Positions 43,294-59,104 of a stretch of 64,000 nt of DNA are shown here, piece by piece. Below the pieces are notes generated by a model. The model did no database searches. It saw only the letters and a list, made by a program, of their open reading frames with translations, and was not told the origin of the DNA. The DNA is taken from positions 2,666,001 through 2,730,000 of the forward strand of contig CP018627.1 of assembly GCA_002021875.1 (NCBI GenBank). The letters run 5' to 3'. Made by a program: the position numbers and the translations under genes. The DNA comes from Streptomyces hygroscopicus (GTDB taxonomy: Bacteria > Actinomycetota > Actinomycetes > Streptomycetales > Streptomycetaceae). Within the stretch, counting starts at the first letter, position 1; every line of letters begins with the position of its first letter.

Positions 43294-43403
43294 CGCGGCC
43301 CGGCTCCGGCTCGCGGCCCCGGCTCCGACCCGCGGCCCAGTTCTGGCCCGCGGCCCGGCTCCGGCTCGCGGCCCCGGCTCCGACCCGCGGCCTAGTTCTG
43401 GCC
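43294..43403. repeat. 55-bp tandem repeat, two copies
   Basis: Copies 43294-43348 and 43349-43403 differ at one base; a third copy begins at 43404 and diverges after about 10 bases. The single change (C43338 to T43393) creates the CTA that is the TAG stop of the minus-strand gene ending at 43392. The repeat lies in the 3' end of and just beyond that gene. Confidence 0.9.
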
Positions 43404-45638
43404 CGCGGCCCGGCCCTCGCCCGCGGCCACGGTGAACGCGCTCTTCACCGTCTGCGTCACCGTGTTGCCGTCCGAGTCGGTCCCGGTGACGCGCAGGGAC
43501 GCGTCCCGGCCCGCCGCCGAGTCCGGAGTGGTCCAGTCCGCGCGGAACCGGCCCTTGCCGAGCGCGGTGGTGGACGCCGCGGTCCAGCGCTCACCGTCGT
43601 CGAAGGACACCTCGACCCTCGCCTTGGTGACCGCGGGCGGGGCAACCACCCCCGGCACATGTCCGAAGCCGACGACGAGATGGCCGTCACCGGCCGGGCT
43701 CGTGCCGTCCAGCCCGGTGTCGAGCCGGTAGTGCGGGACGACGACCGGCAGCGCCGAGCACTCGCCGGGCCCGTCGTACTCGCCCGCCTCCGACACACAC
43801 GTCCAGTTGTCCGGCACGGTCTGGCCGCCCGAGTGCCCCGAGGCGAAAGTCCACTCGGTGTGCGTGGTCAGCGACTGGCGGAAGTCGCCGTTCGTCCTGG
43901 TCTGGTCGTACACCACCGTGTACGGGGCCTTCTTGGGCGGCACGGTCAGGACGCCGCCGGGGACGCCGTCCCCCTCGTACAGGGTCGTGTCACCGGAGAC
44001 CACCGCGAAGTGCGAGGAGGTGATGTCGGACGGGACCGCGAGGACGTGGTGTCCGGCGGAGTCCATGACCGTGGCCGTGGCCAGGGAGAAGGTGAGGGCG
44101 TCGCCCTTGCGGCAGGCCGCGCAGTACCACGTCTCGTCCGCGGCGGCGCCCGGCGCGGGCTCGGTGAAGCCCGGGACCAGCGGGCCGCGCAGCCAGTCGA
44201 CGGTGGTGGTCCGGCCGGGCACGAGGGGCTGCTCCTGGGACACGAAGCGCCGCTCCCCGGCCTTGAGCCAGTCCGCGTAGGAGGTACCGGCGGAGCCGCC
44301 GACGTACTCGGTCCGCCGCGCCGGTGTCTTGAACGGCTCGGACAGCGCCTCGCCGCTCGTCTCGTACGGCAGGTACATCAGGCGCGCGACCTCTTCGGCG
44401 CGGCCCGGTGTATCGCTGTGGTAATTGGTGCGCACCGTGGCCAGTTGGCGTCCGGCGACCTTGTAGTGCTGGTTCTTCGCGATCGTTCCGGCGGGGTTGG
44501 CCAGCTTGAGGTCGTAGGAGTAGGGCGTGGCCGCGTCCGCGGGCGCCTTGCGGTGGGTGTACACGTTGAAGCGCAGGTCGCCGGTGGTGACGGGACGGCT
44601 GGAGGGCTGCACCTGGACGGGCGGGCCGCCGGAGACGCCGACGCCGCCGTTGACCGCCACCGCGCCCTTCGTGTCCTGGCGCAGGTAGTGGAGGATGAGC
44701 TGGTGTTCCTCCGCGGGCCTCGGGGTCGAGAAGGTGACCCGCTCGGTCGCCTTGCGCAGGTCGAGTACGGCCTCGGTGCCGGTGCCGCCGTCGGGGACGG
44801 TGAACTCGGCGGTGGCCATGCGCACACCGGCCGGCTCACCGGCGCTGTCGAAGGCCGGGGCGGAGACCATGGCGGTGTAGTGGCCCGCCGGGACCTCGAC
44901 CCGCGTTTCGCCCTCTACGGCATCGAGGAACGGCTCCTGGTAGAGGGCGGCGTCGTCGGCGTTGGCCAGGGCGAATGACGTGGTGCCCGGGAGGGGCTTG
45001 CCGTCCGTACCGAGCACGGTGATCTTCACCGGGTGGTCCGCCCGCGCCGACGGGCGCGGGGCGGCCCGCACACCGTCCGTGGCGACCGCCGGTGCGACGG
45101 AGGTGACGCCGCCGAACAGCGGGCCCTCGCCCACGGATCCCTTCGCCGCCTCGGCGCCGATCTGCCGCGCCAGCGCCGCGCCGAAGGCGGGGCCCGAGGG
45201 CGGGGCCGTGGCGCCCGCGGTGGCCTCGACCCGCACCGGGGTGGTGGTGACACCGGCCTCGGCGAGGGCGGAGACATTGAACAGCGCGGGGTCCAGGGTG
45301 CGGCCGAGGTACGGCAGCGCGGTCAGCGGAATGACGAAGACATCGTTGTCCAACCGCCGGGTGACATAGTCCGCTTCGGCACCCGGCCGCGGCGCCACCA
45401 CGACGCTCCCGTCCGCGCGGAGCGTGACGCGCTCGCCGGTGACCAGGGTGACGGTGTGGGCCGTCGTCTCGGATGCGACCGGCACGGCGGACGCGGCCGT
45501 GGCGGCGCCTGACATCGGGGCGGGGGCGGCCAGGGCGCCGGGCGCGGGGCCCGCCGCCAGCCCGAGGGCGGCCAGGACACAGCCGGACGCGAGGGCGCGG
45601 GCGCCGCTCGCTCCGGCTCTGATCCGTCGGTACCACAT
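43392..45638 (-). CDS. Secreted S8-peptidase-like protein lacking the protease domain
   Basis: The 748-residue protein has a signal peptide (Arg-rich, cleavage near ALAAPAP) and a region like the N-terminal propeptide of Streptomyces subtilisin-like peptidases (HTVTLVTGERVTLRADGSVVV, DVFVIPLTALPYLGR, LDPALFNVSALAEAG). In S8 peptidases the catalytic core follows; here the chain goes through a short Ala/Gly linker straight into the C-terminal beta domains (VKITVLGTDGKPLPGTTSFALANADD to the end). No Asp-Thr-Gly, His-Gly-Thr or Gly-Thr-Ser-Met motifs are present. ATG 45638 follows GGAAGG. It may be an inhibitor, decoy or structural protein. Confidence 0.7.
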   Translation of the reverse strand: MWYRRIRAGASGARALASGCVLAALGLAAGPAPGALAAPAPMSGAATAASAVPVASETTAHTVTLVTGERVTLRADGSVVVAPRPGAEADYVTRRLDNDVFVIPLTALPYLGRTLDPALFNVSALAEAGVTTTPVRVEATAGATAPPSGPAFGAALARQIGAEAAKGSVGEGPLFGGVTSVAPAVATDGVRAAPRPSARADHPVKITVLGTDGKPLPGTTSFALANADDAALYQEPFLDAVEGETRVEVPAGHYTAMVSAPAFDSAGEPAGVRMATAEFTVPDGGTGTEAVLDLRKATERVTFSTPRPAEEHQLILHYLRQDTKGAVAVNGGVGVSGGPPVQVQPSSRPVTTGDLRFNVYTHRKAPADAATPYSYDLKLANPAGTIAKNQHYKVAGRQLATVRTNYHSDTPGRAEEVARLMYLPYETSGEALSEPFKTPARRTEYVGGSAGTSYADWLKAGERRFVSQEQPLVPGRTTTVDWLRGPLVPGFTEPAPGAAADETWYCAACRKGDALTFSLATATVMDSAGHHVLAVPSDITSSHFAVVSGDTTLYEGDGVPGGVLTVPPKKAPYTVVYDQTRTNGDFRQSLTTHTEWTFASGHSGGQTVPDNWTCVSEAGEYDGPGECSALPVVVPHYRLDTGLDGTSPAGDGHLVVGFGHVPGVVAPPAVTKARVEVSFDDGERWTAASTTALGKGRFRADWTTPDSAAGRDASLRVTGTDSDGNTVTQTVKSAFTVAAGEGRAAGQN

Positions 45639-45837
45639 GAGGGGGATCCTTCCTTGACGGTGGATCAACGTGACGGGGGCAATATGAAGGGGACGGCGGG
45701 GCCAACGTGACGGGGGATCAGTGGGCACTTTTACGCCCCACAGGTTCGCCACCGAAAGAGATCACTGCCAGGTACGGGCCAAAGGTGGCCGAAAAGCGCC
45801 GCTTTGAGGCGTTAACCGAGCATGCGGCCACCCCGGA
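45639..45837. other. Gap between the S8-like gene and the VWA remnant
   Basis: The segment should contain the promoter of the S8-like gene (minus). No gene is visible; it includes a fairly AT-rich stretch near 45755-45815. Confidence 0.4.
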
Positions 45838-46071: not shown

Positions 46072-47007
46072 TCAGCCGAGCAGCAGGCTCCGGCGCCATA
46101 GCGGGCGCTGGAGCGCGGTGATCATTCCGGCGTCGGTGAGGAAGGCGACGAGGCGCTCGCCCGCCCAGCGCATGGTCCGCCGGAAGTGCGGATTGGCGCG
46201 GGCCTCGCGGGCGGCGCGGCGCGGGTCGAGGCCCACGGCGCGGTAGATCGGGGCGTTGGTGTACGTGGTCATGGCCAGCATCGCGCACCAGGCGGTCAGC
46301 TGCCGGTGGAACTCCAGGACGGCTCCCGACCTGCCGCGCCGGGCGTCCAGGAGTTCGGAGTGGGCGAAGCGGATATGCCGTGACTCCTCCATCACATGCA
46401 GGCGCGACACCTGCCGTACGAGGGGCTGCACCCGCTCGTCGCCCATGGCCTCGCGCTGGAACCGGTCGTAGACCTCCTCGATCAGCAGGGCGGCCGCGAA
46501 CAGGCTCGCGCCGCGCAACCGCGGGAGCACCGCCCGGCCCAGGTGCCGGACGAGGGCCGGCGGCCGGTAGACCGGGCAGCCGAGGGTGCCCAGGGCCCGG
46601 CCGAACATGGCGACGTGGCGCGTCTCGTCGGCCACCTCGCTCAGTGCGTAGTGGGTGCGTGGCGACGCCGGGTCGCGGGCGGTCAGATAGCCGGTGAGCA
46701 TCTGCATCAAGGTCAGCTCGAACCAGGTGGCCATGCTGATCATGTTGGCCCACTCGCTGCGGGAGAGCGCGAGGCGCCGCTCCTCGCTCAGCCGGTGCCA
46801 CGTGGGGGTGGCGTACAGCGACATCCGCTCCGGCTGGAGATACCAGCGACCGGGCTCGGGCGGGGCGTCCCAGTCGATGGCGAGGGCCGGGTCGTAGGTG
46901 TGCTTGGCCGCGGTGCGCAGCAGGCGTCCGGCCGCCTCGGCCGGTGTCTGGCGTGGCGTACCCGTCGGGGCGGGCGCGGACCGCCCGCGCGGATGTGGTT
47001 CGCTCAC
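46072..47007 (-). CDS. AurF-like diiron oxygenase coupled to the PKS
   Basis: The 311-residue protein is an all-helical ferritin-like diiron enzyme. Ligand candidates are Glu97 (MATWFELTLMQML), Glu124/Glu128-x-x-His131 (ALSEVADETRHVAMF), Glu177/178 (LLIEEVYDRF), and Glu208-x-x-His211 (HVMEESRHIRFAHSEL), matching the AurF/CmlI family. Known members oxidise aryl amines to nitro groups, but other members act on other substrates. The GTG start overlaps the PKS stop as GTGA, so the two proteins are made in step and the oxygenase should act on the PKS product or intermediate. Confidence 0.85.
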   Translation of the reverse strand: MSEPHPRGRSAPAPTGTPRQTPAEAAGRLLRTAAKHTYDPALAIDWDAPPEPGRWYLQPERMSLYATPTWHRLSEERRLALSRSEWANMISMATWFELTLMQMLTGYLTARDPASPRTHYALSEVADETRHVAMFGRALGTLGCPVYRPPALVRHLGRAVLPRLRGASLFAAALLIEEVYDRFQREAMGDERVQPLVRQVSRLHVMEESRHIRFAHSELLDARRGRSGAVLEFHRQLTAWCAMLAMTTYTNAPIYRAVGLDPRRAAREARANPHFRRTMRWAGERLVAFLTDAGMITALQRPLWRRSLLLG

Positions 47008-50000
47008 CGCGCACCGCCTGCCGTAACCGAGCGGTCGGGTCCGGCCTGGGCCGGGACGGGACGGGGTCCTGCCGGTGTTTGGACTTCCGTGGCGGCGGGG
47101 GCTTCCGTCGCGGGGCCGGGGCCCGGTGGGACGCCGGGCGGAGCCGTGACCTGCAGTCCCAGCCGGAGCTGCACGATTCTGGCGAACTCGGCGATGGTGC
47201 CGTTGCTGCGCAGCAGTTCCATGGGCGGGATGTCGAGTTCGTAGCGCTGGTTGAGCGAGAGGAGCACCTGAGCGGCCATCAGGGAGTCCATGCCGTAGGA
47301 GTCCAGGCGCCGGTGCGGGTCGAGTGCCTCGTCGTCCATCTGCAGGACCTCCGCGAGCAGCCGGGTGAGCTGATCGACGAGGTGGGCGAGGGCGGTCTCC
47401 TCGTCCATGAGGGAGAGCCGGCGCAGGAGTTGCTCGCGGGTGGCCTCCCCGTCCCCCGCCTGGGGCGGTACGAGGTCACCGAGGCGCGGGGCGCGCAGCA
47501 GGGGCAGCAGAACGGCGGCGCGCGACCAGTCCGCCCGGGAGACGCCCACCACCGCGGGGGCGTCCGGCCGGTCGTCGCCGAGCAGCCGCCGGCCGTGGTC
47601 GAGGGCGGTGTGCGGGGCGAGGGGCTCGATGCCCAGGCCGTGGAGGGAGTCGAGCAGGTCGTTGCGGGCCGCGTAACCGATCTCGTCGATGGCGCCCCAG
47701 GCGAGGGTGAGCGCCGGTTCGCCGTCCCGGCGGCGCAGCCGGGCCAGGCCCTCCAGGTAGAGGTTGCCCGCCGTATAGGCCGACTGCTTGAAGTTGCCCA
47801 CCATGGCGGTCGTGGAGGAGTAGCACAGGAAGAAGTCCAGCGGACGCCCGCGGGTGAGGGTGTCCAGGACATGGGCTCCGGCGATCTTGGGCCGCAGGAC
47901 TGCGCTCATCCGCTCGGCGGTCAGCTCGGCGAGGGGCGCGTCGTCCAGGGCCATGGCCGCGTGGACCACACCGCGCAGCGGATGGCCGTTCTCCTCGACG
48001 TCCTTCAGCACCCGGCGCATCGCCTCCGCGTCGGCGGTGTCCGCGGCGTACGCGGTGACCCGCACCCCGTCCGGGGCGAGCGCGTCGCGCACGGCGGCGG
48101 CCTCCGGACCGCGGTCCCCGCTGCGGCTCACCAGGGCGAGATGCCGGGCGCCGAGCCCGGCGAGCCACTGTGCGGTGGCCGCGCCGAAGCCGCTGGTGCC
48201 GCCCGTGACCAGATAGGAGGCGTCGGGGTCGAGGCGGGGTGCGCGGGGCGCGGTGGGCGTCGCACGCGCGGGCGGAGAGGCGTACAAGGGGGCTGGTTCG
48301 ACGGCGCAGGGCTCGTCCAGCGGGTCGAACGTGACGACGACCTTGCCGATGTGGCGTGAGTGGCGCATCAGCACGAAGGCGTCCGCCACGCGGGCGGCGG
48401 GGAAGACGGTGTGCGGCAGCGGCTGGAACTCCGCCCTTTTCTCCGGCGCCTGGCCGTCCCCCAGTTCCTCTGGTGCCTGGCCGCCCCCCAGTTCCTCTGG
48501 CGCCTGGCCGCCCCCCAGTTCCTCTGGCGCCTGGCCGCCCCCCAGGGTCCGCCCCACGTCCTCCAGGAGGTCTCCCAGCAACCGGGGGTCGCGCAGCACG
48601 GTGGTCAGATCCACGCCGTGGAAGGAGATGTGGGAGCCGAAGGGGCGCAGCGGCAGGGTCCGGTCCTCGTAGAAGTCGCGCTTGCCGAGTTCGATGAAGC
48701 GGCCGCCGGGGCGGAGCACCTCCAGGCCCCGCGCCAGGGCCTGTCCGGAGAGGGAGTTGAGGACGATGTCCACTCCCCTGCCGTCGGTGAGGTCCATGAC
48801 CTGGACGGTGAAGTCCAGCGAGCGTGAGTCGAGGACGTGTGCCACGCCGAGTGCGCGCAGCAGGTCGCGTTTGGGCTCGCTGCCCGCCGTGGCGATGACC
48901 GTGGCGCCGTGTGCCCGTGCGTAGTGGAGGGCCGCGAGGCCGACGCCACCGGCCGCGCCGTGCACGAGCACGGTCTCCCCCGCCCGCATCCGGGCGGTGT
49001 ACAGCAGGCTGTAGTGGACCGTGCAGAGGGCGACCGGCACGCTGGCGGCCTCCGCGAAGGTGACTCCCACGGGGATCGGCCACAGATTGCGGGCCGGGCT
49101 GACCACTTGGGAGGAGAGCGCCCCGGTGAGCAGCCCGACGACCCGGTCCCCGGGCGCGAAGCGGTCCACACCGGGCCCGCAGGCGGTGACCACGCCCGCA
49201 CATTCGAGCCCGAGGTTTTCCTCGCGCGGGCTGCCGGCCAGTGCCTCCGTGGGCAGCAGCCCGACCGTCTGCATGATGTCCCGGTAGTTCAGGGAAGCGG
49301 CGCGCACCTCGACGACCACCTCTCCGGGACCCGCGACCGGCGGGGGGATCTCCTGCCAGGCGAGGCGGTAGGAGAGGCCGGGCCGGCGCACCCGCAGGGC
49401 GAACGGCGGCGGGGCCGCGCCGTCGGCGAGGGGGACGGCGGGCGGCAGGGCGCGCTCGCGCGGGACGAAGCGGTCGTGCGCGGTGAGCACGATCTCGTCC
49501 TCGTCGGCGGCATCGGCGGTGTCGGGGGCGTCCGGGGCCTCGGTGTCGAGGAGTTCGCGGACCAGCCGGGCGGCGTCCGCGGCCGGGTCGCCGCCCCGGC
49601 ACAGGCTCAGGCGGCGCCCGCGCAGGTCGGGTTCCTCGTTGGCCAGGCAGCGTGCCACGCCCCAGGCGGCGGCGTCGGTGGGGTGGGTGATCGGTCCGGG
49701 GGTGGCCTCGGCGCCGTGCGGCCTGGTGACGAGCCACAGCCGGACCCCGGCGGGCGAGCCGAGGGACCGGTGCGCCTCCGCCACGGCCCGCAGCGTCTGA
49801 CCGGCGTGGGTGGCGCGGGCGACGGCTTCCTCGGCGTCGTCGGGTTCGGCGCCGCCCAGGATCAGGACGACGGTCGTCTCGCCGGTGCCGGCCTCGGTCA
49901 GCGCCCGGCTCCACGCGGCGGCGTCGGTGTGGGCGTCGGTGACGACGCTGTGCCCGGCGCCGTGTGCGGTCAGCGCCTCGGTGACGGCGTGGGGCAGCGG

Positions 50001-53000
50001 GTCGTCGGCCGTGTCGCCGCGGACGATGTACGCGGCGGACGGGGCAGGGGGTGGCGGTGCGGCGGCGGGGGCGGGGGCACCACCGGCCGCGGCGAGGAAG
50101 ACGGAGGCGTGGTCGCGTCCGGGCGGCTCGGTGTCGCCGGTGCGGACACAGGAGGTGAAGCCGCACCGGCGCAGGAGCGCGGGCCACTGCTCGCGGGTCA
50201 GCAGCGGGGAGCCGGGCCGCAGACCGGTGTCGGTGCGGTGGTGGAAGCTGTCGAGGGCGCCGAAGACGGGGAGCAGGACCTCCGGCTCATGGCATTCGAA
50301 GGCCAGCAGGTGTCCGCCGGGCGCGAGGAGCGAGGCCACGCGGCCGAGGGCGGGCTCCAGGTCCTTGGCCGTGTGCAGCGCGTTGGCGGCGATGACGAGG
50401 TCGAAGCCCTGTGGGTGGTAGCCCTGTTCGGCGAGGTCCCGGTCCAGGTCGAAGGTGCCGTATTCGATGAAGTCGTAGTCGCCGAAGCGGTTGCGGGCGC
50501 GGGTCGGGTAGGCCGGTGAGACATCGGTGTAGCGGTAGCGGGTGCGGTCGGCGGGCAGCAGGGGCAGCAGCGCCGCGGTCATGCCGCCGGTGCCGGCGCC
50601 GATCTCCAGGACGCGCAGCGCGCGGTCGGCGGGCCAGTGGGCCAGCAGGGCGCGGAGCAGGGCCTGGGCGAGGCGGTTGTGGAAGCGGGAGATCGGCGCG
50701 GTGTCGTAGTACTGCTCCAGGAGGTGCCAGGCCGATTCGGCGCTGAGCAGTGCCAGGGCGCTCGCGCGGCCGGTGAGGACGTCCGCCAGATGCCGGGTCA
50801 GGTGTGTCGTCAGGGCGATCCGGTGCACATCCCCGGGGGCCCGGACGAGGGCCTCGCGCACCGGCGGCGGGGTGTGGCGGGCGTCGGGCGTCAGACACCG
50901 GCCGCCGGAGGTCTCGGTGAGCAGGCCGCGGCGCAGCAGCAGGGGTTCGAGCAGGGCGATCAGGGGGCGGTGCCGCTCCTCCATACCGGCCGCCACGAGG
51001 TCGTCGGCGGTGAACGGCGCGGCGGGGTCGGGCAGCAGGCGGGCCAGCGCGGCGGCGGCCGAGCGCGCGGTCAGCTCCTCGTCGTGACGCGAGGTCAGGT
51101 CGTAGCGGGTCGTGCGCCACCGCTCCCGTACGGCGTCCAGACGCGGTGCGGCGTCCCGGAGGATGGCCTCGGGGGGCGGCAGGGGTGAGGGCGCGGCCGG
51201 GAGGTGGGCGCGGGGAGCGGCTCGCGGAACGGTGTGGTGGAGGGTGACGGGGGTGGTGCGGGCGATCGGGAAGAGGCGCAGCCGGCACTCCTCCAGGCGG
51301 GCGGTGACGGTGCCGTCGGCGTCCGCGACCGTGATGTCCCAGCAGACCTCGCTGTCGGTGGCGTCGCGTTCGGTGACCCACATGATCCCGGTGGGCGACG
51401 GCGCCGACCACACCCGCACCGCGCCGATGGACGCGGGCAGATAGGCGCCCCGCTCCCGCAGCCGGTCGTAGAGGAGGGCGACACCGGTCTGGAGGGCTCC
51501 GTCGAGCAGCGCCGGATGTGCGGTGTATGGGGCGCCCGGGGCCTCGTGGCGGTAGGTGGCGACCGAGGTCCGCGCCCCCAGGCGCACCTCGTCCAGCATG
51601 CGGAAGGCGGGCCCGTAGACGAGCCCCACCTCGGCGCAGGCGGCGTAGTGTTCCTCGCCGCTGACGCGCGTCGCGCACCGGGCGCGCAGCCGCTCCGGGT
51701 CGACCGGCTCGGGCCGGGGGCTCAGCAGCGGGCGCACCCGGGCCCGCGCGTGCGCCCGTGGCTCCGGGCCGCGCTCGTCGGTGCTGGTGACCGTGGCGAG
51801 CGTGGTGTCGGGGTCGAGGCCGACCCGCAGCCGTACGGCGGAGGCGTCGGCCCAGGGCACCACGAGGCTGGCGCTGACGTCGAGGTGTGCCACCTCCACC
51901 GGCCGTCCGTGCACGGCGCGCCCCGCGGCGAGGAGCGCTTCGGCGTATCCGGTGGCCGGCATGACGACGGATCCGCCGAGCCGGTGGTCGGCGAGCCAGG
52001 GCACGAGGACGGGCTCGATCGCGCCCTCCCAACTGGGGACGGCGGTGGGCATGCGCTCGCCGAGCAGGGGGTGGACGATGACGCCGTCCCCGCTGGAGTT
52101 GGCCCAGGAGCGGGGGGTGCCGGACCAGTGGGGCTCGTACTGCCACGGGTAGGCGGGGAGCCGGGTGACCCGGCCCGGCACCGGGAAGTGCCGGGTGAGA
52201 TCGGCCGAGGCCCCGGCCGCGAGCGCTCCGGCCGCCGCCGCGCCGAGGGCGGCGGGACCGTCCGCCCCGCGGCGCAGGGTGGGCAGGACGACAGTGCCGC
52301 CGGTGCGAGTGCCGACGCCGGTTTCCATGCCGGTCCCGATGCCGGTCCCGATGCCGGTCCTTCCGCGCCGGGACGCCACGCGCCGGAGGTAGGCGCGCAG
52401 GACGGGATGGGGGCCGATCTCCAGGAGGATGCCGGCCCCGTCCGCGAGGACGCGCCGCACCGCGTCCGCGAAGAGCACCGGGCGGCGCACGTTCTGCCAC
52501 CAGTACGCCGCGTCCAGATCGGTGCCACGGGCGCGGAAACCGGTGACGGTCGAGTAGAACGGCACCCGGACCGGCGACGGCGTCACGTCGGCCAGGCGGG
52601 TGCGGAGCTCGTCCTCGGTGGGGTCCATGTGGCGGCTGTGGAAGGCGTAGTCGAGGCCCAGATCGCGGAAGAAGACGCCCTCGGAAGCGAGTTCGGCGCC
52701 GAGCAGGTTCAGGGCCTCGGCGTCACCGGCCACCGTGACGTCCTCGGCGCTGTTGACACCGGCGATCTCCAGCTTCTCCCCGTATCCCGCGAGGGCCTTC
52801 GCGGCCCGGTCGGCGGACAGCCCGACGGCGGCCATCCGGCCACTGCCGACGGTGGTCCCTTGCACCCGGCCACGTTCGGCGATCACCCGCGCCGCGTCCG
52901 GCAGGGACAGCGCTCCGCAGATGTGGGCGGCGGCCACCTCCCCGACGCTGTGGCCGACGACCATGGCGGGCTCGATCCCCCGGGCGCGCAGCACCGCGGT

Positions 53001-55175
53001 GATGCCCAACTGCACGGCGAACAGGAGGGGCTGGGCCACCTCCGTCGCGGCCAGGTCCGCCTCCCCGGCGTGCGCGGTGAGGCGATCGGCCACCGACCAG
53101 CCCAGACGGGGCGCGAGCTCGGCGTCGGCCTCGCACACCGCGCGACGAAAGACGGCGTCGGCGGAGAAGAGGTCCGCGCCCATGCCCGCCCACTGTGAGC
53201 CATTGCCGCAGAACACGAAGGCGACGCGCCCGCTATCGGCGGCGGCACTCAACGCACCGGGGGCGGCTGGCGCGTGGGTGGGGGCGGTCGGCTCTCCGCC
53301 GGACGCGGCCGATTCTCCGGTGGGGGCGGTCGGCTCGCCGGTGGGAGCGGTCGGCCCCGCGGTCAGCGCGACCAACTCCCTGCCGGACGCGATCGGTTCA
53401 CCGGTCGGCGCGGCCGAGACCCTCCCGGGCGCGACCGGCTCCGCGATGGAGACGACCGTCCCAACGATCGGCGCGCCCGACTCACCGCTAGGCGCAGCCG
53501 ATTCTCCGGTGGGCGCGGTCGGCTCCGCGGCGAGCGCGGTCGACTCCCCGGGCGCGGCCGACGCCCCACCGGGCGCGGTCGGCTCCCCGCCAGACCCGTC
53601 GACACCCGGCCGCCCCGGCTCGGGCTCCGGCGCCGTCAAGGCGCGCAGTGCGCGTGCCGCCTCACCAGGCGTGGTGGCCCAGACGACGGCGCGGTGTTCG
53701 TGGCGGCCGCGGCGGAGGCAGGAGGTGTGGGCCAGGTCGTAGAAGTCGGCGGGGGTCGTTTCGTCCAGGTGCGCGGCCGTGGTCTCGGCCGCCTCCGACA
53801 GTGCCTTGGCGGTGCGGGCGGAGACGAGCAGGGGCACCGGTGAGCGCGGGGGTCGCGGGCGGTCCGGCGCGGGCGGCGGTTCGGCCACGATGGCATGGGC
53901 GTTGGCGCCGCCGAAGCCGAAGGAGTTGACCCCGGCGACGGCGCGCCCGCCGCTCGTGGCGGGGGCGAGGGCCGTGGACCGGGTGGTGAGCCGCAGCCCG
54001 AGGCCCTCGAAGTCGATGTCGGGGTGCGGCGGTTCGGCGTGGAGCGAGGCCGGTGCGGTGCGGTGCCGCAGCACCAGGAGTGCCTTGAGCAGACCGGCCA
54101 TGCCGGACGCCGGCTCCAGATGGCCGAGGTTGGTCTTCACCGAGCCGAGCGGGAGGGCGCCGGAGATCCGGCGTACGCCGAGGGCCCGGCCGATGGCGAG
54201 GGCCTCCAGGGGGTCGCCGACCGGGGTGCCGGTGCCGTGCGCCTCGAAGTACACCAGCTCGTCGGGGTGCACCCGGGCGCGGTCGTAGACCTCGCGCAGC
54301 AGCCGCTCCTGCGCGTCGGAGCTGGGCAGTGCCAACCCCATGGTCCTGCCGTCGCTGTTGCTGCCGGTGCCCAGGACGAGCCCGTGGATCCGGTCGCCGT
54401 CGGCCAGGGCGTCCGACAGCCGTTTCAGCAGCACCACGCCGCCGCCCTCGGCCCGTACGAACCCGTCCGCCTGTGCCGAGAAGGAGGCGCACCGGCCCCG
54501 CTGGGAGAGCATCGACGCCTGGGAGAACCCCACGTAATGGAACGGGCTGAGCAGCACATTGACCCCGCCGCAGACGGCGGCCCGGCCGCCGCCCTCCCAC
54601 AGGGTGCGGCAGGCGCGGTCGAGGGCCACCAGGGAGGAGGAGCACGCGGTGTCGATCGCCATGCTGGGGCCGCGCAGATCGAAGGCGTGCGAGACCCGGT
54701 TGGCGGCGATCGACGAGGCGGCGCCCGACATGGTGTAGGCGCCCACCGTGCGCAGCGCGGACATCTGGAGCGCGCCGTAGGAGGCGTCGGAGATGCCGAC
54801 GAAGACCGCGGTGTCCGAACCGGCCAGCGTGGCGGGGTCCACGGCGGCGTCGTCCAGCGCCTCGGCGGTCATCTCCAGCAGCAGCCGGTGCTGGGGGTCC
54901 ATGTGGGCCGCTTCCTTGGGGGAGATCCCGAAGTAGGCGGCGTCGAACCCGGCCACGTCGTCGAGGAAACCACCGGCCGCGGTGTACGACTTGCCCCGGC
55001 GCGGCACGGCGGGGTCGGTGAACAGGCGGGCGTCGAACCGGTCCGCTGGCACCTCCCCCACCAGGTCCCTGCCCTGCTCCAGGGCGTCCCAGAGCCCGTC
55101 CAGGTCCCGGATGCCACCGGGAAGCCGGCAGGCCGCCCCCACCACCGCGATCGGTTCGGCCTCGTCCTGACGCAT
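47004..55175 (-). CDS. Iterative type I polyketide synthase, KS-AT-DH-cMT-ER-KR-ACP
   Basis: The 2723-residue single-module enzyme has KS (about 5-430; Cys178 in DTACSSS, His313, His352), AT (650-935; Ser743 in GHSVGE and YAFHS at 843-847, malonyl type), DH (1030-1305; His1064 in HRLGGSVVMP, Asp1225 in LLDGALQ), C-methyltransferase (1340-1695; VLEIGAGTGG), a structural pseudo-KR (1712-1900), ER (1925-2285; HGAAGGVGLAAL), KR (2318-2550; GGTSGFG, Tyr2467, Asn2471) and ACP (2595-2672; Ser2631 in YGMDSL). All active residues seem intact. The order is that of fungal highly reducing synthases and mycocerosate-type enzymes plus a methyltransferase. There is no thioesterase or loading module. Start ATG 55175 follows AGAAAGG. 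Confidence 0.95.
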   Translation of the reverse strand: MRQDEAEPIAVVGAACRLPGGIRDLDGLWDALEQGRDLVGEVPADRFDARLFTDPAVPRRGKSYTAAGGFLDDVAGFDAAYFGISPKEAAHMDPQHRLLLEMTAEALDDAAVDPATLAGSDTAVFVGISDASYGALQMSALRTVGAYTMSGAASSIAANRVSHAFDLRGPSMAIDTACSSSLVALDRACRTLWEGGGRAAVCGGVNVLLSPFHYVGFSQASMLSQRGRCASFSAQADGFVRAEGGGVVLLKRLSDALADGDRIHGLVLGTGSNSDGRTMGLALPSSDAQERLLREVYDRARVHPDELVYFEAHGTGTPVGDPLEALAIGRALGVRRISGALPLGSVKTNLGHLEPASGMAGLLKALLVLRHRTAPASLHAEPPHPDIDFEGLGLRLTTRSTALAPATSGGRAVAGVNSFGFGGANAHAIVAEPPPAPDRPRPPRSPVPLLVSARTAKALSEAAETTAAHLDETTPADFYDLAHTSCLRRGRHEHRAVVWATTPGEAARALRALTAPEPEPGRPGVDGSGGEPTAPGGASAAPGESTALAAEPTAPTGESAAPSGESGAPIVGTVVSIAEPVAPGRVSAAPTGEPIASGRELVALTAGPTAPTGEPTAPTGESAASGGEPTAPTHAPAAPGALSAAADSGRVAFVFCGNGSQWAGMGADLFSADAVFRRAVCEADAELAPRLGWSVADRLTAHAGEADLAATEVAQPLLFAVQLGITAVLRARGIEPAMVVGHSVGEVAAAHICGALSLPDAARVIAERGRVQGTTVGSGRMAAVGLSADRAAKALAGYGEKLEIAGVNSAEDVTVAGDAEALNLLGAELASEGVFFRDLGLDYAFHSRHMDPTEDELRTRLADVTPSPVRVPFYSTVTGFRARGTDLDAAYWWQNVRRPVLFADAVRRVLADGAGILLEIGPHPVLRAYLRRVASRRGRTGIGTGIGTGMETGVGTRTGGTVVLPTLRRGADGPAALGAAAAGALAAGASADLTRHFPVPGRVTRLPAYPWQYEPHWSGTPRSWANSSGDGVIVHPLLGERMPTAVPSWEGAIEPVLVPWLADHRLGGSVVMPATGYAEALLAAGRAVHGRPVEVAHLDVSASLVVPWADASAVRLRVGLDPDTTLATVTSTDERGPEPRAHARARVRPLLSPRPEPVDPERLRARCATRVSGEEHYAACAEVGLVYGPAFRMLDEVRLGARTSVATYRHEAPGAPYTAHPALLDGALQTGVALLYDRLRERGAYLPASIGAVRVWSAPSPTGIMWVTERDATDSEVCWDITVADADGTVTARLEECRLRLFPIARTTPVTLHHTVPRAAPRAHLPAAPSPLPPPEAILRDAAPRLDAVRERWRTTRYDLTSRHDEELTARSAAAALARLLPDPAAPFTADDLVAAGMEERHRPLIALLEPLLLRRGLLTETSGGRCLTPDARHTPPPVREALVRAPGDVHRIALTTHLTRHLADVLTGRASALALLSAESAWHLLEQYYDTAPISRFHNRLAQALLRALLAHWPADRALRVLEIGAGTGGMTAALLPLLPADRTRYRYTDVSPAYPTRARNRFGDYDFIEYGTFDLDRDLAEQGYHPQGFDLVIAANALHTAKDLEPALGRVASLLAPGGHLLAFECHEPEVLLPVFGALDSFHHRTDTGLRPGSPLLTREQWPALLRRCGFTSCVRTGDTEPPGRDHASVFLAAAGGAPAPAAAPPPPAPSAAYIVRGDTADDPLPHAVTEALTAHGAGHSVVTDAHTDAAAWSRALTEAGTGETTVVLILGGAEPDDAEEAVARATHAGQTLRAVAEAHRSLGSPAGVRLWLVTRPHGAEATPGPITHPTDAAAWGVARCLANEEPDLRGRRLSLCRGGDPAADAARLVRELLDTEAPDAPDTADAADEDEIVLTAHDRFVPRERALPPAVPLADGAAPPPFALRVRRPGLSYRLAWQEIPPPVAGPGEVVVEVRAASLNYRDIMQTVGLLPTEALAGSPREENLGLECAGVVTACGPGVDRFAPGDRVVGLLTGALSSQVVSPARNLWPIPVGVTFAEAASVPVALCTVHYSLLYTARMRAGETVLVHGAAGGVGLAALHYARAHGATVIATAGSEPKRDLLRALGVAHVLDSRSLDFTVQVMDLTDGRGVDIVLNSLSGQALARGLEVLRPGGRFIELGKRDFYEDRTLPLRPFGSHISFHGVDLTTVLRDPRLLGDLLEDVGRTLGGGQAPEELGGGQAPEELGGGQAPEELGDGQAPEKRAEFQPLPHTVFPAARVADAFVLMRHSRHIGKVVVTFDPLDEPCAVEPAPLYASPPARATPTAPRAPRLDPDASYLVTGGTSGFGAATAQWLAGLGARHLALVSRSGDRGPEAAAVRDALAPDGVRVTAYAADTADAEAMRRVLKDVEENGHPLRGVVHAAMALDDAPLAELTAERMSAVLRPKIAGAHVLDTLTRGRPLDFFLCYSSTTAMVGNFKQSAYTAGNLYLEGLARLRRRDGEPALTLAWGAIDEIGYAARNDLLDSLHGLGIEPLAPHTALDHGRRLLGDDRPDAPAVVGVSRADWSRAAVLLPLLRAPRLGDLVPPQAGDGEATREQLLRRLSLMDEETALAHLVDQLTRLLAEVLQMDDEALDPHRRLDSYGMDSLMAAQVLLSLNQRYELDIPPMELLRSNGTIAEFARIVQLRLGLQVTAPPGVPPGPGPATEAPAATEVQTPAGPRPVPAQAGPDRSVTAGGAR
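48441..48545 (-). repeat. 27-bp tandem repeat in the ER-KR linker of the PKS
   Basis: Residues 2211-2245 repeat GGGQAPEEL about four times (27-bp period, last copies degenerate: LGDGQAPEK). The repeat sits between the ER catalytic core and its C-terminal strand region and is in frame. Confidence 0.9.
53234..53639 (-). repeat. Degenerate Pro/Thr/Ala/Gly repeat in the KS-AT linker of the PKS
   Basis: Residues 513-648 are a low-complexity series of units such as GEPTAPTGES, GESAAPSGES and GEPTAPTHAP. Such a long flexible linker replaces the compact KS-AT linker seen in other PKSs. Confidence 0.8.
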
Positions 55176-55622
55176 ACCGGGGCCTTTCTCAAGTCACTTC
55201 GCGACACCGGCGGGAAGCCCGCGTCACGCTCTCGGCAGCGACGCACACTAGGCCAGACGGGCCACCGCCGAGGCCGTCTGTACACCCGTTGGAGGGAACG
55301 GCGGCGAAGTGCACTCGGTGAGGTGAACGGCCCCGGCCCGGGCCGCTTAGCCCATTCGGGTGATGTGTGTCGACGGGGCCCGTACGGAACGCGCGTACAG
55401 AGCGTGCGTACGGCGGGCCGGGCGGCGCGGCGGGGTGCGGTCGGTGTGGTGTCCTCGGCACGCGCCCCGGCGGCGGTCCCGGCACGCGCCCCGGCGCGGT
55501 CCCGGTGCGGTTCCGGCGCGTTGGGATCCGCCGCCGGATCGCAAGGACCCTCGGATCCGCCGCCGGATCCCGCCGCCGGATCCCCATGCCCCTCACCCGC
55601 CCTTCGACGTCTGGAGCCCGCC
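55176..55622. other. Divergent promoter region of the PKS and SDR genes
   Basis: These 447 bases contain no supported gene. They must hold promoters for the PKS (minus) and the SDR (plus). A 17-mer (GGATCCGCCGCCGGATC) occurs at 55524-55540 and 55553-55569 and a related unit follows, next to the SDR ribosome site. Runs of CGGTCCCGGTGCGG-like sequence near 55480-55515 are also repetitive. I see no convincing -35/-10 pair. Confidence 0.5.
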
Positions 55623-56780
55623 ATGGCCGTACTCTTCACCGGCGCGACCGGTTTCCTCGGCAGCCGCATCCTGCGCCACCTGCTCGCCGAGGACGGCGAC
55701 GACCGGCCGGTCACCGTCCTCGGCCGGGGCGGGGGAGAGAGTCTGCGGGCGCGGGTCGAGACGGCCCTCGACGGCCTCGACGGCCTGGCGGGCGCCGCGA
55801 CGCCGCGCGGGCGCCTGCGGTACGTGTCCGCCGACCTCACCCTGCCCGGCCTCGGCCTGACCGACGGCGAACGCCGCGCCCTCACCGACAGGTGCTCGGT
55901 GGTCTGGCACTGTGCCGCGCACCTCGCGCTGCACGACGACCCGGTGCCGCTGTTCAAGGCGAACGTCCTCGGCACCCGGCGCGTCCTCGACCTGGCCACG
56001 GAAGCGGCGGGGGCGCGGGTCGTCCACCTGAGCACCGCGTACGTCGCCGGGGGACGCGCCGAGGGGCACATCCGCGAGGACGACCTGGACGGCGGCCACG
56101 GCTTCCTGACGCCGTACGAGGAGAGCAAGTACACCGCCGAACGCGCGGTGCACGCCTGGAGCGCCCGCACCGGCCGGGGCGCCACGGTCCTGCGGCCGTC
56201 GCTGCTCGTCTCGGACCGGCCCGTCCATGGCAGCGGGCAGCGCCAGCCGCTGGCGGTGCTGGCGTTCCTCATCCACGAGGCGCTGCGCCGCAGGGCCGAG
56301 GACGACCCGGCGCTCGCCTCCCTCCTCGACGGTGGCGACGCCCACGGCAGCGGTCTTCGGGTGCGGGTCCGCGCGGGGGTCGGCGGGGCGCTCAACCTGG
56401 TCCCGGTGGAGTACGCGGCCCGCGCGGCGGTGTGCGCCGCGCGGGCGGCGGCGGCCCGTCCGGGCGCCACGGCGGGGGTGCGCACGGTGCACCTGACCCA
56501 TCCGCACAACACGCCCTTCGCGACGGCGGTGAAGGTCCTGGAGCGGCTGTACCCGGGGCTGTCCCTGGGCCTCGTGGACGACCTGGACGACCCGGATCCG
56601 TACGAGTCGCTGTTCGCTCACCACCTGGCCTCGCTCCTGGTCTTCACCGCGCAACGCAGGACGTACGACCGGAGCAACTTGCTCCAGGACACGGCGGGCC
56701 TGCCCGACCCCAAGCCCTTGGACGCCGCCTACCTCGCCGACGCCGCCGGAGAGACGGTCGCACCCGCCCCGGCCGCCTGA
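55623..56780 (+). CDS. SDR-family thioester reductase-like protein (standalone R domain)
   Basis: The 385-residue protein is an extended SDR: GATGFLGSRIL (7-17) for NADPH, VVWHCAAHLALHD, STAYVAGG, and YxxxK at Tyr165-Lys169 (YEESKYTAE). The pattern is that of the reductase domains that release acyl chains from carrier proteins as aldehydes or alcohols. ATG 55623 has CTGGAG upstream. Encoded divergently from a PKS that lacks a thioesterase, it is a good candidate for chain release. Its last 114 bases are duplicated downstream. Confidence 0.83.
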   Translation: MAVLFTGATGFLGSRILRHLLAEDGDDRPVTVLGRGGGESLRARVETALDGLDGLAGAATPRGRLRYVSADLTLPGLGLTDGERRALTDRCSVVWHCAAHLALHDDPVPLFKANVLGTRRVLDLATEAAGARVVHLSTAYVAGGRAEGHIREDDLDGGHGFLTPYEESKYTAERAVHAWSARTGRGATVLRPSLLVSDRPVHGSGQRQPLAVLAFLIHEALRRRAEDDPALASLLDGGDAHGSGLRVRVRAGVGGALNLVPVEYAARAAVCAARAAAARPGATAGVRTVHLTHPHNTPFATAVKVLERLYPGLSLGLVDDLDDPDPYESLFAHHLASLLVFTAQRRTYDRSNLLQDTAGLPDPKPLDAAYLADAAGETVAPAPAA

Positions 56781-57080
56781 CCAGTCCCCCACGACTCGGC
56801 GGCCCGGCGGGGCGCGGAGGTGGTGAAGCCGACGCTGCTCAACTCCACCGCCCCAGCCCGGGACGACCGGAGCAACCTGCTCCAGGACACCGACTGGCCA
56901 CCCGACCCCAAGCCCCCGGACGCCACCTACCTCGCCGACGCCGCCGGAGACGCGGTCGCCCCCGCCTCGGCCGCCTCACCCCTCCCCCGCGGCCCCGCCG
57001 TGGCCAGCACCCGCAGCTCCCCCAGCCAGGCAGCGGCGAACGACTCGGCGGCCCGGCGGGGTTCGGTGGTGGTGAAGCCG
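56667..57080. repeat. Tandem duplication of the convergent gene ends (SDR and acyltransferase)
   Basis: Segment A (56667-56831) and segment B (56865-57080) are related copies with a 198-bp offset over the first 114 bases and a 249-bp offset over the last 41 bases, so A lacks 51 bases present in B. On the plus strand A is the true C-terminus of the SDR; in B the same sequence has lost the stop (TGA to TCA). On the minus strand B is the true C-terminus of the acyltransferase; in A a copy ending ASPAASAR-like with a conserved TAG at 56729 remains. Confidence 0.88.
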
Positions 57081-58258
57081 GCCACGGCCTGGTCCTGGGC
57101 GGTGGCCAGGACGGCGGACAGGTGGTGTCCGGCCGGGAGGAAGTTCAGCGGCAGCACGCGCCGGACCCGCCGCCCGGCCACCACCAGCGGGGACGAGGGG
57201 CCCCGCACATTGCTGGCGAGCAGGGTGGCGCGGGCCGGGTCGAAGTACCGCTCGAAACACCATCCCCCGGCCGCGGCGGGGACGGACCGGAACACCGCGC
57301 GCACCAGCGGATGGCGCAGCGCGCGGGCCCGGCCCGCCGTGCGGGCGGCGACCAGGGCGAGGCGGCGTCCGGCGTCGGGCTCCGCCACGGGGAGCGGGAT
57401 ACGGAGCGGGATGTGGCGGTTGCGCAGCACGGCCGCGTCTCCCGGGCCCCGGACGTTCACCGGGACCAGGGCGCGTATCTGCCCGTCGGGGCCGTGGAGT
57501 TCGGGCCGGGTGCGCAGCGCCCCGCTCAGCGCTGCCAGGTATACGTCGTTGACGGTCGTGCCGTGGCGACGGGCGATGCCACGCAGCAGGCCGAGGTCCG
57601 TCTCCGCGCAGGCGTAGGAGAGGGTGGCGGGCGGGCCACCGTCGGCTTCCGCCGCGCTGCCCCGGCGCCGCTCCAGCAGGGGCGTCCCGCACAGCCAGGC
57701 CGCGCGCAGCGGATCGGTGACGGCACGGTGCGGGGCGCCGCGCGCCCGCCATGGTTCGGCCCGCGCGGGGGACGCCGTGGCGGCGTCCGGTCCATGGGCG
57801 CCCGGTCCATGGGCGCCCGTCCAGGCGGCCAGTACGCCGACCACTCCCGCCCCGTCGAGCAGCCGGTGGTCGGCCCGCCAGACCAGGGCGGACGTATCGC
57901 CGGGCAGTCCCGCCACCGTGGAGCAGGACCAGCGGTGCGGCTCCAGCGGCCTGGCCAGCGCCTCGTGCGCCACGTCGGACAGGCCCCGCTCCGGACCCGC
58001 CTCGGCGTACCCGTCCGCGCCACTCCACGGGCCGTCGTCCGAGGGCCCGGTGCCCAGCGACTCCGCCACCGGCCGCAGCGAGGCGGCGAGTTGGCGCCGC
58101 TCGGGAGGAGGACCCTCCAGCTCCAGCACCACGCCGATGGTCAGTCCGGTGCCGGGATGCGCTTTCCCGTACGCCACGAGCGCCGCGTCCGGAAACGGCA
58201 GTTTCCCCGTCGGCTTCCCGGTCGGCTTCTCCGTCGGCTTCTCAGGCTTCCCCGTCAT
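56927..58258 (-). CDS. WS/DGAT-type acyltransferase (wax ester synthase/diacylglycerol acyltransferase-like)
   Basis: The 443-residue protein shows WS/DGAT landmarks: the active motif DHRLLDG (130-136; canonical HHxxxDG with the first His replaced by Asp, the second His131 kept), GTTVNDVYLAALSGALR, LVPVNVRGPGD, and SNVRGPSSPLVVAGRRV. It begins with a small repeat (KPTEKPTGKPTGK). ATG 58258 is chosen after GGAGG. The family moves acyl groups from CoA onto alcohols. In this cluster it could esterify an alcohol made by reductive release from the PKS. The C-terminus lies within duplicated DNA. Confidence 0.8.
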   Translation of the reverse strand: MTGKPEKPTEKPTGKPTGKLPFPDAALVAYGKAHPGTGLTIGVVLELEGPPPERRQLAASLRPVAESLGTGPSDDGPWSGADGYAEAGPERGLSDVAHEALARPLEPHRWSCSTVAGLPGDTSALVWRADHRLLDGAGVVGVLAAWTGAHGPGAHGPDAATASPARAEPWRARGAPHRAVTDPLRAAWLCGTPLLERRRGSAAEADGGPPATLSYACAETDLGLLRGIARRHGTTVNDVYLAALSGALRTRPELHGPDGQIRALVPVNVRGPGDAAVLRNRHIPLRIPLPVAEPDAGRRLALVAARTAGRARALRHPLVRAVFRSVPAAAGGWCFERYFDPARATLLASNVRGPSSPLVVAGRRVRRVLPLNFLPAGHHLSAVLATAQDQAVAGFTTTEPRRAAESFAAAWLGELRVLATAGPRGRGEAAEAGATASPAASAR

Positions 58259-58507: not shown

Positions 58508-59104
58508 GTGACTTCAGCGAACGGGCGCAGGCGCGCCCTCGTCCATACGGCAGCCCTGGGGCTGCTGGCGGCCTCGGCGACCGCCGTGGCCTTACTGGGG
58601 CAGCAGCCCCCGGCCCGCGCGGCCGCCGAAGCACCGGCCGTTCCCCTGCCGTTGACCTGCAAGGGCACGGCCACGGTGGAGCCCACCAACCCCGACCTGG
58701 TGCTCGTACGCGACGAAAGCGGCGTCGCGGGCTACCGGGCCACCATCACCGGAAACTGCCTCGGCTCCGCCGTGGTCTCCAAGGTGCGGGTCACTCTGGA
58801 GGGCATGGCCGAGGGAACCTGCGGCGCGGCCATCGGCACCGGCACGGGAACGGCGGAGTGGATCGGGCCGGGCGGTGCGCGGGTCGGCACCAGCACCGGC
58901 GGCGGCAAGCTCCGCTTCACCAACGACGCCGACGGCAACGTCACGTTCAGGGCCGAGAACGTGCAGATCGCCAGGGGCCTCTTCGCGGGCTCCGTGGGCG
59001 TCGACATCACGGTGGACGACCGCGGTGTGGGCCGGGACTGCTGGACGCAGGGCAGGCTGGCCGGCGGCTCGGGCAGCGGCTCAGCGCGGCTGACGTTCGG
59101 CTGA
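58508..59104 (+). CDS. Secreted protein of unknown function with four cysteines
   Basis: The 198-residue protein starts at GTG 58508 after GGGAGAAG. A signal peptide (RRRALVHTAALGLLAASATAVALL, cleavage near ARA/AAE) is followed by a beta-rich domain with Cys in LTCKG, GNCLGS, GTCGAA and RDCWTQ, probably two disulfides. I do not recognise a family. The last 24 bases overlap the convergent MMPL gene. It lies beside the polyketide cluster but may be unrelated. Confidence 0.72.
   Translation: MTSANGRRRALVHTAALGLLAASATAVALLGQQPPARAAAEAPAVPLPLTCKGTATVEPTNPDLVLVRDESGVAGYRATITGNCLGSAVVSKVRVTLEGMAEGTCGAAIGTGTGTAEWIGPGGARVGTSTGGGKLRFTNDADGNVTFRAENVQIARGLFAGSVGVDITVDDRGVGRDCWTQGRLAGGSGSGSARLTFG

Follow-up and report, generated by a model that had tools for sequence, protein, structure and literature searches.

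Analysis of a 64,000-nucleotide stretch of the Streptomyces hygroscopicus genome (assembly GCA_002021875.1, positions 2,666,001 to 2,730,000 of the single 12.01-Mb contig CP018627.1; here, the window) identified a locus in which the gene for a single-module type I polyketide synthase (PKS) lies divergently beside that for a free-standing thioester-reductase-like short-chain dehydrogenase/reductase (SDR), together with genes for an AurF-like diiron oxygenase, a WS/DGAT-family acyltransferase, and an MMPL-family transporter (Table 1). Comparison with related loci showed that the PKS and the reductase belong together and that this core pair is common to a number of Streptomyces. Our favored interpretation, held with somewhat better than even confidence, is an iterative-PKS lipid pathway in which a methyl-branched chain would be released reductively, converted to an ester, and exported by the MMPL protein.

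Results

The pairing of the PKS with the reductase is supported by the shared evolution of the two proteins. Reductase searches covered 392 genomes of the genus and 394 of the family (overlapping sets, with 55 and 44 matching genomes, the window's own included); 60 of the 93 distinct other matches, mostly the stronger ones, were fetched in stretches of up to 20 kb, yielding 26 loci with a full PKS and 34 without (the latter including L123 and L133, cut contigs with a partial PKS, and L186, which is broken). At least 80 further loci (L007 to L086), from an SDR-profile search that matched on one weak pattern, enter none of the counts. KS and SDR distances were closely correlated (r = 0.91 over 25 of 27 loci, L126 and L129 being dropped for split hits; none of 5,000 Mantel permutations was as high), and removal of near-copies changed this little (r = 0.89 over 22 loci). 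Mapped onto a tree of 47 PKSs, reductase linkage needed 5 changes versus 15.5 in shuffles, with labels drawn from two differently sampled sets; all members of the clade of 16 to which the window's PKS belongs (support, 100/98) are reductase linked. The relative orientation of the PKS and reductase genes varies among loci (divergent or on one strand), and the linkage is therefore more than a frozen gene order.

A divergent thioester-reductase-like SDR had been proposed in the original prediction, and its NAD_binding_4 match confirmed it on the plus strand; a minus-strand gene at 55596 to 56792 was rejected as the mirror frame of the real gene, without a Pfam match. GATGFxG, Y165, and K169 (the catalytic YxxxK) are invariant in 26 reductase sequences, as in extended SDRs, and the predicted fold is closest to R domains. 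Fold and motifs point to membership in the thioester reductase (R domain) family, with reduction of acyl-ACP by NADPH as the predicted reaction; Pfam found no sulfotransferase domain in the protein. It resembles the R domains of PKSs and nonribosomal peptide synthetases (NRPSs), such as MxaA and the S. coelicolor PKS thioreductase 8v1x, in fold, NAD(P) motif, and YxxxK, but differs from them as a free-standing 385-amino-acid (aa) protein that is ~25% identical. A copy (89%) of the final 115 bp of the reductase gene lies a short way downstream, at 56863 to 56976, and overlaps the WS/DGAT gene at its 3' end; the last residues of the acyltransferase are therefore read from the antisense of this copy. 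L118 has a similar fragment of 27 aa.

Pfam domains placed KS, AT, DH, cMT, ER, KR, and ACP in this order on one PKS protein, with no thioesterase domain, in agreement with the highly reducing order and in-line C-methyltransferase (cMT) originally described. The active-site motifs include DTACSSS and EAHGTGT (KS), GHSVG and YAFH (AT), HxxxGxxxxP (DH), EIGAGTG (cMT), GAAGGVG (ER), S-Y-N (KR), and GMDSL (ACP). The KR glycine-rich pattern as written matched neither this PKS nor 108 of the 110 long homologs listed, and we judged it too narrow for that reason. An in-line pseudo-KR had also been claimed; it stands as a putative region, based on the alignment of residues 1701 to 2217 with 5bp4, part of mycocerosic acid synthase (MAS). 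Classification as a MAS-type synthase (KS-AT-DH-psiKR-ER-KR-ACP without cMT) was rejected in view of the methyltransferase core at residues 1522 to 1624. The AT motif YAFH, shared by 89 of 108 scored long relatives, suggests malonyl extender units by known motif rules, and the lack of other PKS modules alongside suggests repeated use of the one module.

Single PKSs of this cMT-bearing, highly reducing type had been thought uncommon in actinomycetes, a view that searches with the cMT region refuted. Among 8,000 scored candidates, 1,435 proteins matched at 0.001; of the 120 matches listed, 110 were at least 2,400 aa long, and 106 of these carried the S-adenosylmethionine (SAM) motif. A match at 1e-25 was present in 92 of 295 Streptomyces genomes and one at 4.2e-52 or better in 38 (a hand count, own genome included), most of these 38 best matches sitting in open frames near 2,500 aa. 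By these sequence searches, the PKS is not unusual in Streptomyces; its closest relatives are recorded under names that include Streptomyces violaceusniger, S. yatensis, and S. malaysiensis. Two minisatellites lie within the gene, one in an ER loop (48441 to 48545; 27-bp unit, ~4 copies) and one in the KS-AT linker (53277 to 53589; 21-bp units); in close relatives, the ER insert has 1 to 4 units and the linker, where measurable, 60 to 192 aa. In Peterkaempfera (probably the genome of L179), the PKS appears as a protein of 2,322 aa and the KS is encoded by an open frame of its own, reflecting a split gene or a sequencing error.

The wider neighborhood is variable. Among the 26 PKS-SDR loci, WS/DGAT occurs in 9 (a 26% match in L188 was not confirmed by PF06974), MMPL in 8 (the matches in L126, L128, and L203 being truncated where the locus ends), and the diiron gene in 2 (L117 and L118, which are 96 to 97% identical), and the four-gene set was rejected as a conserved unit: it is the PKS-SDR pair that recurs. 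Occurrence of the PKS without its partners, which the original prediction had named as evidence against itself, was found both here (17 loci lack WS/DGAT) and in 20 loci in which a PKS of this family has no reductase close by. These 20 were chosen from the cMT survey as having no SDR match nearby in the genus search, with L218 and L219 still showing weak SDR matches (31 to 33% over 142 aa) ~5 kb away; none has WS/DGAT or AurF, and 6 have MMPL. By Fisher tests, which ignore relatedness, WS/DGAT differed between loci with and without a reductase (9/26 versus 0/20, P = 0.003; 7/24 versus 0/20, P = 0.011, without two near-copies) and MMPL did not (P = 1.0); it thus seems that MMPL accompanies the PKS family and that WS/DGAT accompanies the reductase. 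WS/DGAT also lies beside the reductase in 9 of the 34 loci without a full PKS.

The WS/DGAT and MMPL neighborhood is not random. The genome of the window has no WS_DGAT_C match besides the WS/DGAT of this locus; of the 37 such matches in the 25 genomes holding the 26 loci, 8 fall inside the loci, including 2 in near-copies, compared with a chance expectation of ~0.09 from rounded sizes (~212 Mb of genome, 0.5 Mb of loci). For MMPL, the own genome has 30 domain matches in 12 Mb (two in each of 14 genes, plus 2 weak single ones), or ~0.02 per 20 kb, a density well below the 8/26 and 6/20 loci. Reductase relatives also lie beside KS and MMPL genes without a type I PKS in further lipid loci (L132, L134, L135, L139, L149 to L152, L154, L189, L193, and L197), of which L132, L134, and L135 have WS/DGAT as well.

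Coupling of an AurF-like diiron gene to the PKS gene was confirmed: its GTG start overlaps the PKS stop by 4 nucleotides, and the protein carries the AurF Pfam domain. Candidate metal ligands (E97, E128, H131, E177, E178, H204, E208, and H211) are each present in 47/47 aligned rows, an alignment using 46 of 48 family proteins (P0290 and P0291 were left out); we take them to match AurF's own ligand set. By sequence, the enzyme is far from every solved structure: a single-sequence search of the PDB gave no match at 0.01, and a 20-row profile found only a putative VlmB homolog, weakly (0.036). The family is near-ubiquitous in Streptomyces, with a member in 366 of 382 genomes, and the gene of this cluster is therefore probably a relative that was recruited. 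In L236 to L238, the first base of a 48 to 49% relative is the last base of an MMPL gene, and a KS match lies nearby (L236 and L237 were confirmed to have KASIII and KASII domains); this arrangement hints at a lipid substrate; beside the relatives in L239 to L241, no other query gene matched. These six loci were picked from many matches, three of them on the grounds that MMPL or an identical match length had been seen in L226, and 3/6 is thus a biased rate.

AurF and CmlI belong to amine routes. For the window's enzyme, such a route was rejected, since the 14 of the window's genes that were scanned include neither an aminotransferase nor an NRPS, and the name N-oxygenase should not be transferred to it. 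Plasmid-borne AurF relatives led nowhere, L002 and L003 having no annotated PKS close by (a ketosynthase gene in L002 is ~20 kb away). Two AurF-like paralogs (~42 to 45% and 22 to 23% identical to the query) stand side by side in 8 of the 16 loci that the search of the 382 genomes returned (L227, L228, and L230 to L235).

All four genes originally reported (PKS, diiron, SDR, and WS/DGAT) are present with open frames. The MMPL gene had been missed; the order MMPL-WS/DGAT-SDR-PKS recurs in L117 and L118 and also in the less closely related L183, which keeps the window's order and orientation with proteins 28 to 78% identical and has no diiron gene. A 786-aa open frame adjoining the diiron gene (43392 to 45752) has no Pfam or NCBIfam match and was not seen by the diiron gene in the short flank available for L117 and L118.

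Table 1. Coordinates within the window of the genes and PKS domains of the locus
Feature	Position	Strand	Basis
AurF-like diiron oxygenase gene	46072-47007	-	311 aa; PF11583 8.4e-83; GTG start
Single-module type I PKS gene	47004-55175	-	2,723 aa; Pfam domains, motifs, homologs
KS domain	54036-55157	-	Residues 7-380; PF00109 4.5e-85, PF02801 1.5e-32
AT domain	52377-53219	-	Residues 653-933; PF00698 2.6e-73; GHSVG, YAFH
DH domain	51267-52073	-	Residues 1035-1303; PF21089, PF14765
C-methyltransferase core	50304-50612	-	Residues 1522-1624; PF08242 4.7e-17; SAM motif EIGAGTG
Putative structural pseudo-KR region (approximate)	49386-50075	-	Residues 1701-1930; alignment with 5bp4
ER domain	48588-49331	-	Residues 1949-2196; PF08240, PF00107, PF13602
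KR domain	47685-48221	-	Residues 2319-2497; PF08659 3.9e-58
ACP domain	47178-47375	-	Residues 2601-2666; PF00550 2.4e-15
Divergent PKS/reductase intergenic region	55176-55622	.	447 bp
Stand-alone thioester-reductase-like extended SDR gene	55623-56780	+	385 aa; NAD_binding_4 3.3e-37
WS/DGAT-family O-acyltransferase gene	56927-~58258 (start codon inferred)	-	TIGR02946 2.2e-35 (below cutoff), WS_DGAT_C 2.4e-8; DHRLLDG
MMPL-family transporter gene, probable exporter	59081-61321	-	PF03176 1e-74

Discussion

In the pathway that we favor, the PKS would load malonyl units and elongate repeatedly on its one ACP, its own methyltransferase would C-methylate chosen units, and the beta carbons would be reduced, giving a methyl-branched, largely saturated acyl-ACP; chain length and the number and pattern of methyl groups are, like iteration, what we infer from the genes. 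The PKS having no thioesterase, the separate SDR would release the chain with NADPH as an aldehyde and then an alcohol, which the WS/DGAT enzyme may esterify with an acyl-CoA (or turn into a related ester) and the MMPL protein may export. In the window's species group, the diiron enzyme, translated right behind the PKS, would add one oxidation to the lipid. The analysis itself established the gene content, the catalytic motifs, the predicted fold of the reductase, the PKS-SDR pairing, and the nonrandom neighborhood of WS/DGAT and MMPL. The original interpretation was supported in part; the rarity of the PKS and the conserved four-gene unit were rejected.

Several points weigh against this pathway. 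Whether release ends at the aldehyde or the alcohol cannot be told from sequence, and no acyl-activating gene was found among the 14 window genes scanned between 33935 and 63980. The WS/DGAT protein is divergent from its family models: the score for TIGR02946 (122.5) is under the cutoff of 309.95, that for WS_DGAT_cat (22.9) is just under 23.6, and its DHRLLDG motif has Asp for the first His of HHxxxDG, the second His and DG being kept. The score for WS_DGAT_C (34.6) is over the cutoff of 20.7, and several relatives have HH at the start of the motif. Furthermore, 17 and 18 of the 26 PKS-SDR loci lack WS/DGAT and MMPL, respectively, within the fetched stretch, MMPL is indifferent to the SDR, and the Fisher values take no account of relatedness.

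Some of these points would fit a reductase that stops at the aldehyde, with the aldehyde or a diiron derivative of it as the product and WS/DGAT working on a minor branch or in another context. Both two-electron and four-electron reduction are possible for R domains, most PKS-SDR loci have no WS/DGAT nearby, and the diiron gene overlaps the PKS gene. We nevertheless consider this unlikely, since WS/DGAT is enriched by this reductase even outside PKS loci and absent from the 20 PKS loci without a close one, and a WS/DGAT enzyme needs an alcohol acceptor. The same pattern bears on direct transfer, in which WS/DGAT would take the chain straight from the PKS ACP and esterify some other hydroxyl compound while the reductase serves a different step. 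PapA5-type enzymes take chains in this way, and WS/DGAT and the Pap enzymes are members of one wide acyltransferase superfamily; the lack of a thioesterase and the position of WS/DGAT on the ACP side of the PKS in L127, L136, and L184 are also in keeping with it. However, WS/DGAT was seen only where a reductase is close, and reductase distances track those of the PKS closely, which makes direct transfer quite improbable. That only the PKS and the reductase form a functional unit, with WS/DGAT, MMPL, and the diiron enzyme as chance neighbors, is very improbable, for although these three are missing from most PKS-SDR loci and the diiron family is near-ubiquitous in Streptomyces, enrichment is far above genome density, L183 keeps the gene order despite low protein identity, the diiron and PKS genes overlap, and diiron relatives lie directly behind MMPL with KS nearby in three of six other loci, three picked for that.

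A bolder reading, which we offer tentatively and consider rather doubtful, would extend the favored lipid pathway to a class of polyketide wax esters, not described before, that are exported and spread through Streptomyces, combining the PKS, alcohol release by the SDR, a dedicated WS/DGAT and MMPL, and AurF-like lipid chemistry new for that family. As parts of the same joint reading, the diiron enzyme of this species group would either hydroxylate the chain or remove its aldehyde carbon and leave a hydrocarbon, and the locus would correspond, in Streptomyces, to the mycobacterial PKS/Pap/MmpL envelope lipids. The mycobacterial MAS/Pks2 systems likewise have acyltransferase (Pap) and MMPL (MmpL) partners and make methyl-branched lipids, and MAS is the closest solved PKS (3.6e-249); MAS differs in that its branches come from methylmalonyl units, and it is not known to have a C-methyltransferase or reductive release. 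Fungal highly reducing PKSs such as LovB (5.5e-184) share the domain order with an in-line C-methyltransferase, but LovB uses a partner ER, whereas the window's enzyme is bacterial, with an ER motif in cis and a separate release gene.

The swf clusters of sponge symbionts (PMC3908369), known from sponge metagenomes, also pair a one-module reducing PKS (swfA) with a thioester reductase, fused to a sulfotransferase (swfB), and include a radical SAM gene (swfC). SwfA is given there as KS-AT-DH-ER-KR-ACP without a methyltransferase domain, and sulfotransferase and radical SAM functions stand in place of WS/DGAT, MMPL, and the diiron enzyme; membership of the locus in the swf group was rejected, the window's PKS having a cMT and its reductase no sulfotransferase domain. 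PfSgaAB of Pseudomonas fluorescens (PMC12134224) follows a similar two-gene logic, a monomodular iterative type I PKS with a separate enzyme and a lipid product, but that enzyme is a pyridoxal phosphate-dependent alpha-oxoamine synthase, giving sphingolipids, and not a reductase. In the literature searched, judged at the abstract level, there was no described cluster with this gene set, as had been supposed, nor its product.

What looked like an odd cluster is a recurrent two-gene unit, a PKS with a free reductase, that has WS/DGAT as a recurrent third partner across Streptomyces. The occurrence of WS/DGAT where the reductase is predicts alcohol release. The pathway that we favor would add polyketide-derived wax esters to the lipids of actinomycetes and would provide a small system for the study of iterative C-methylation outside fungi.
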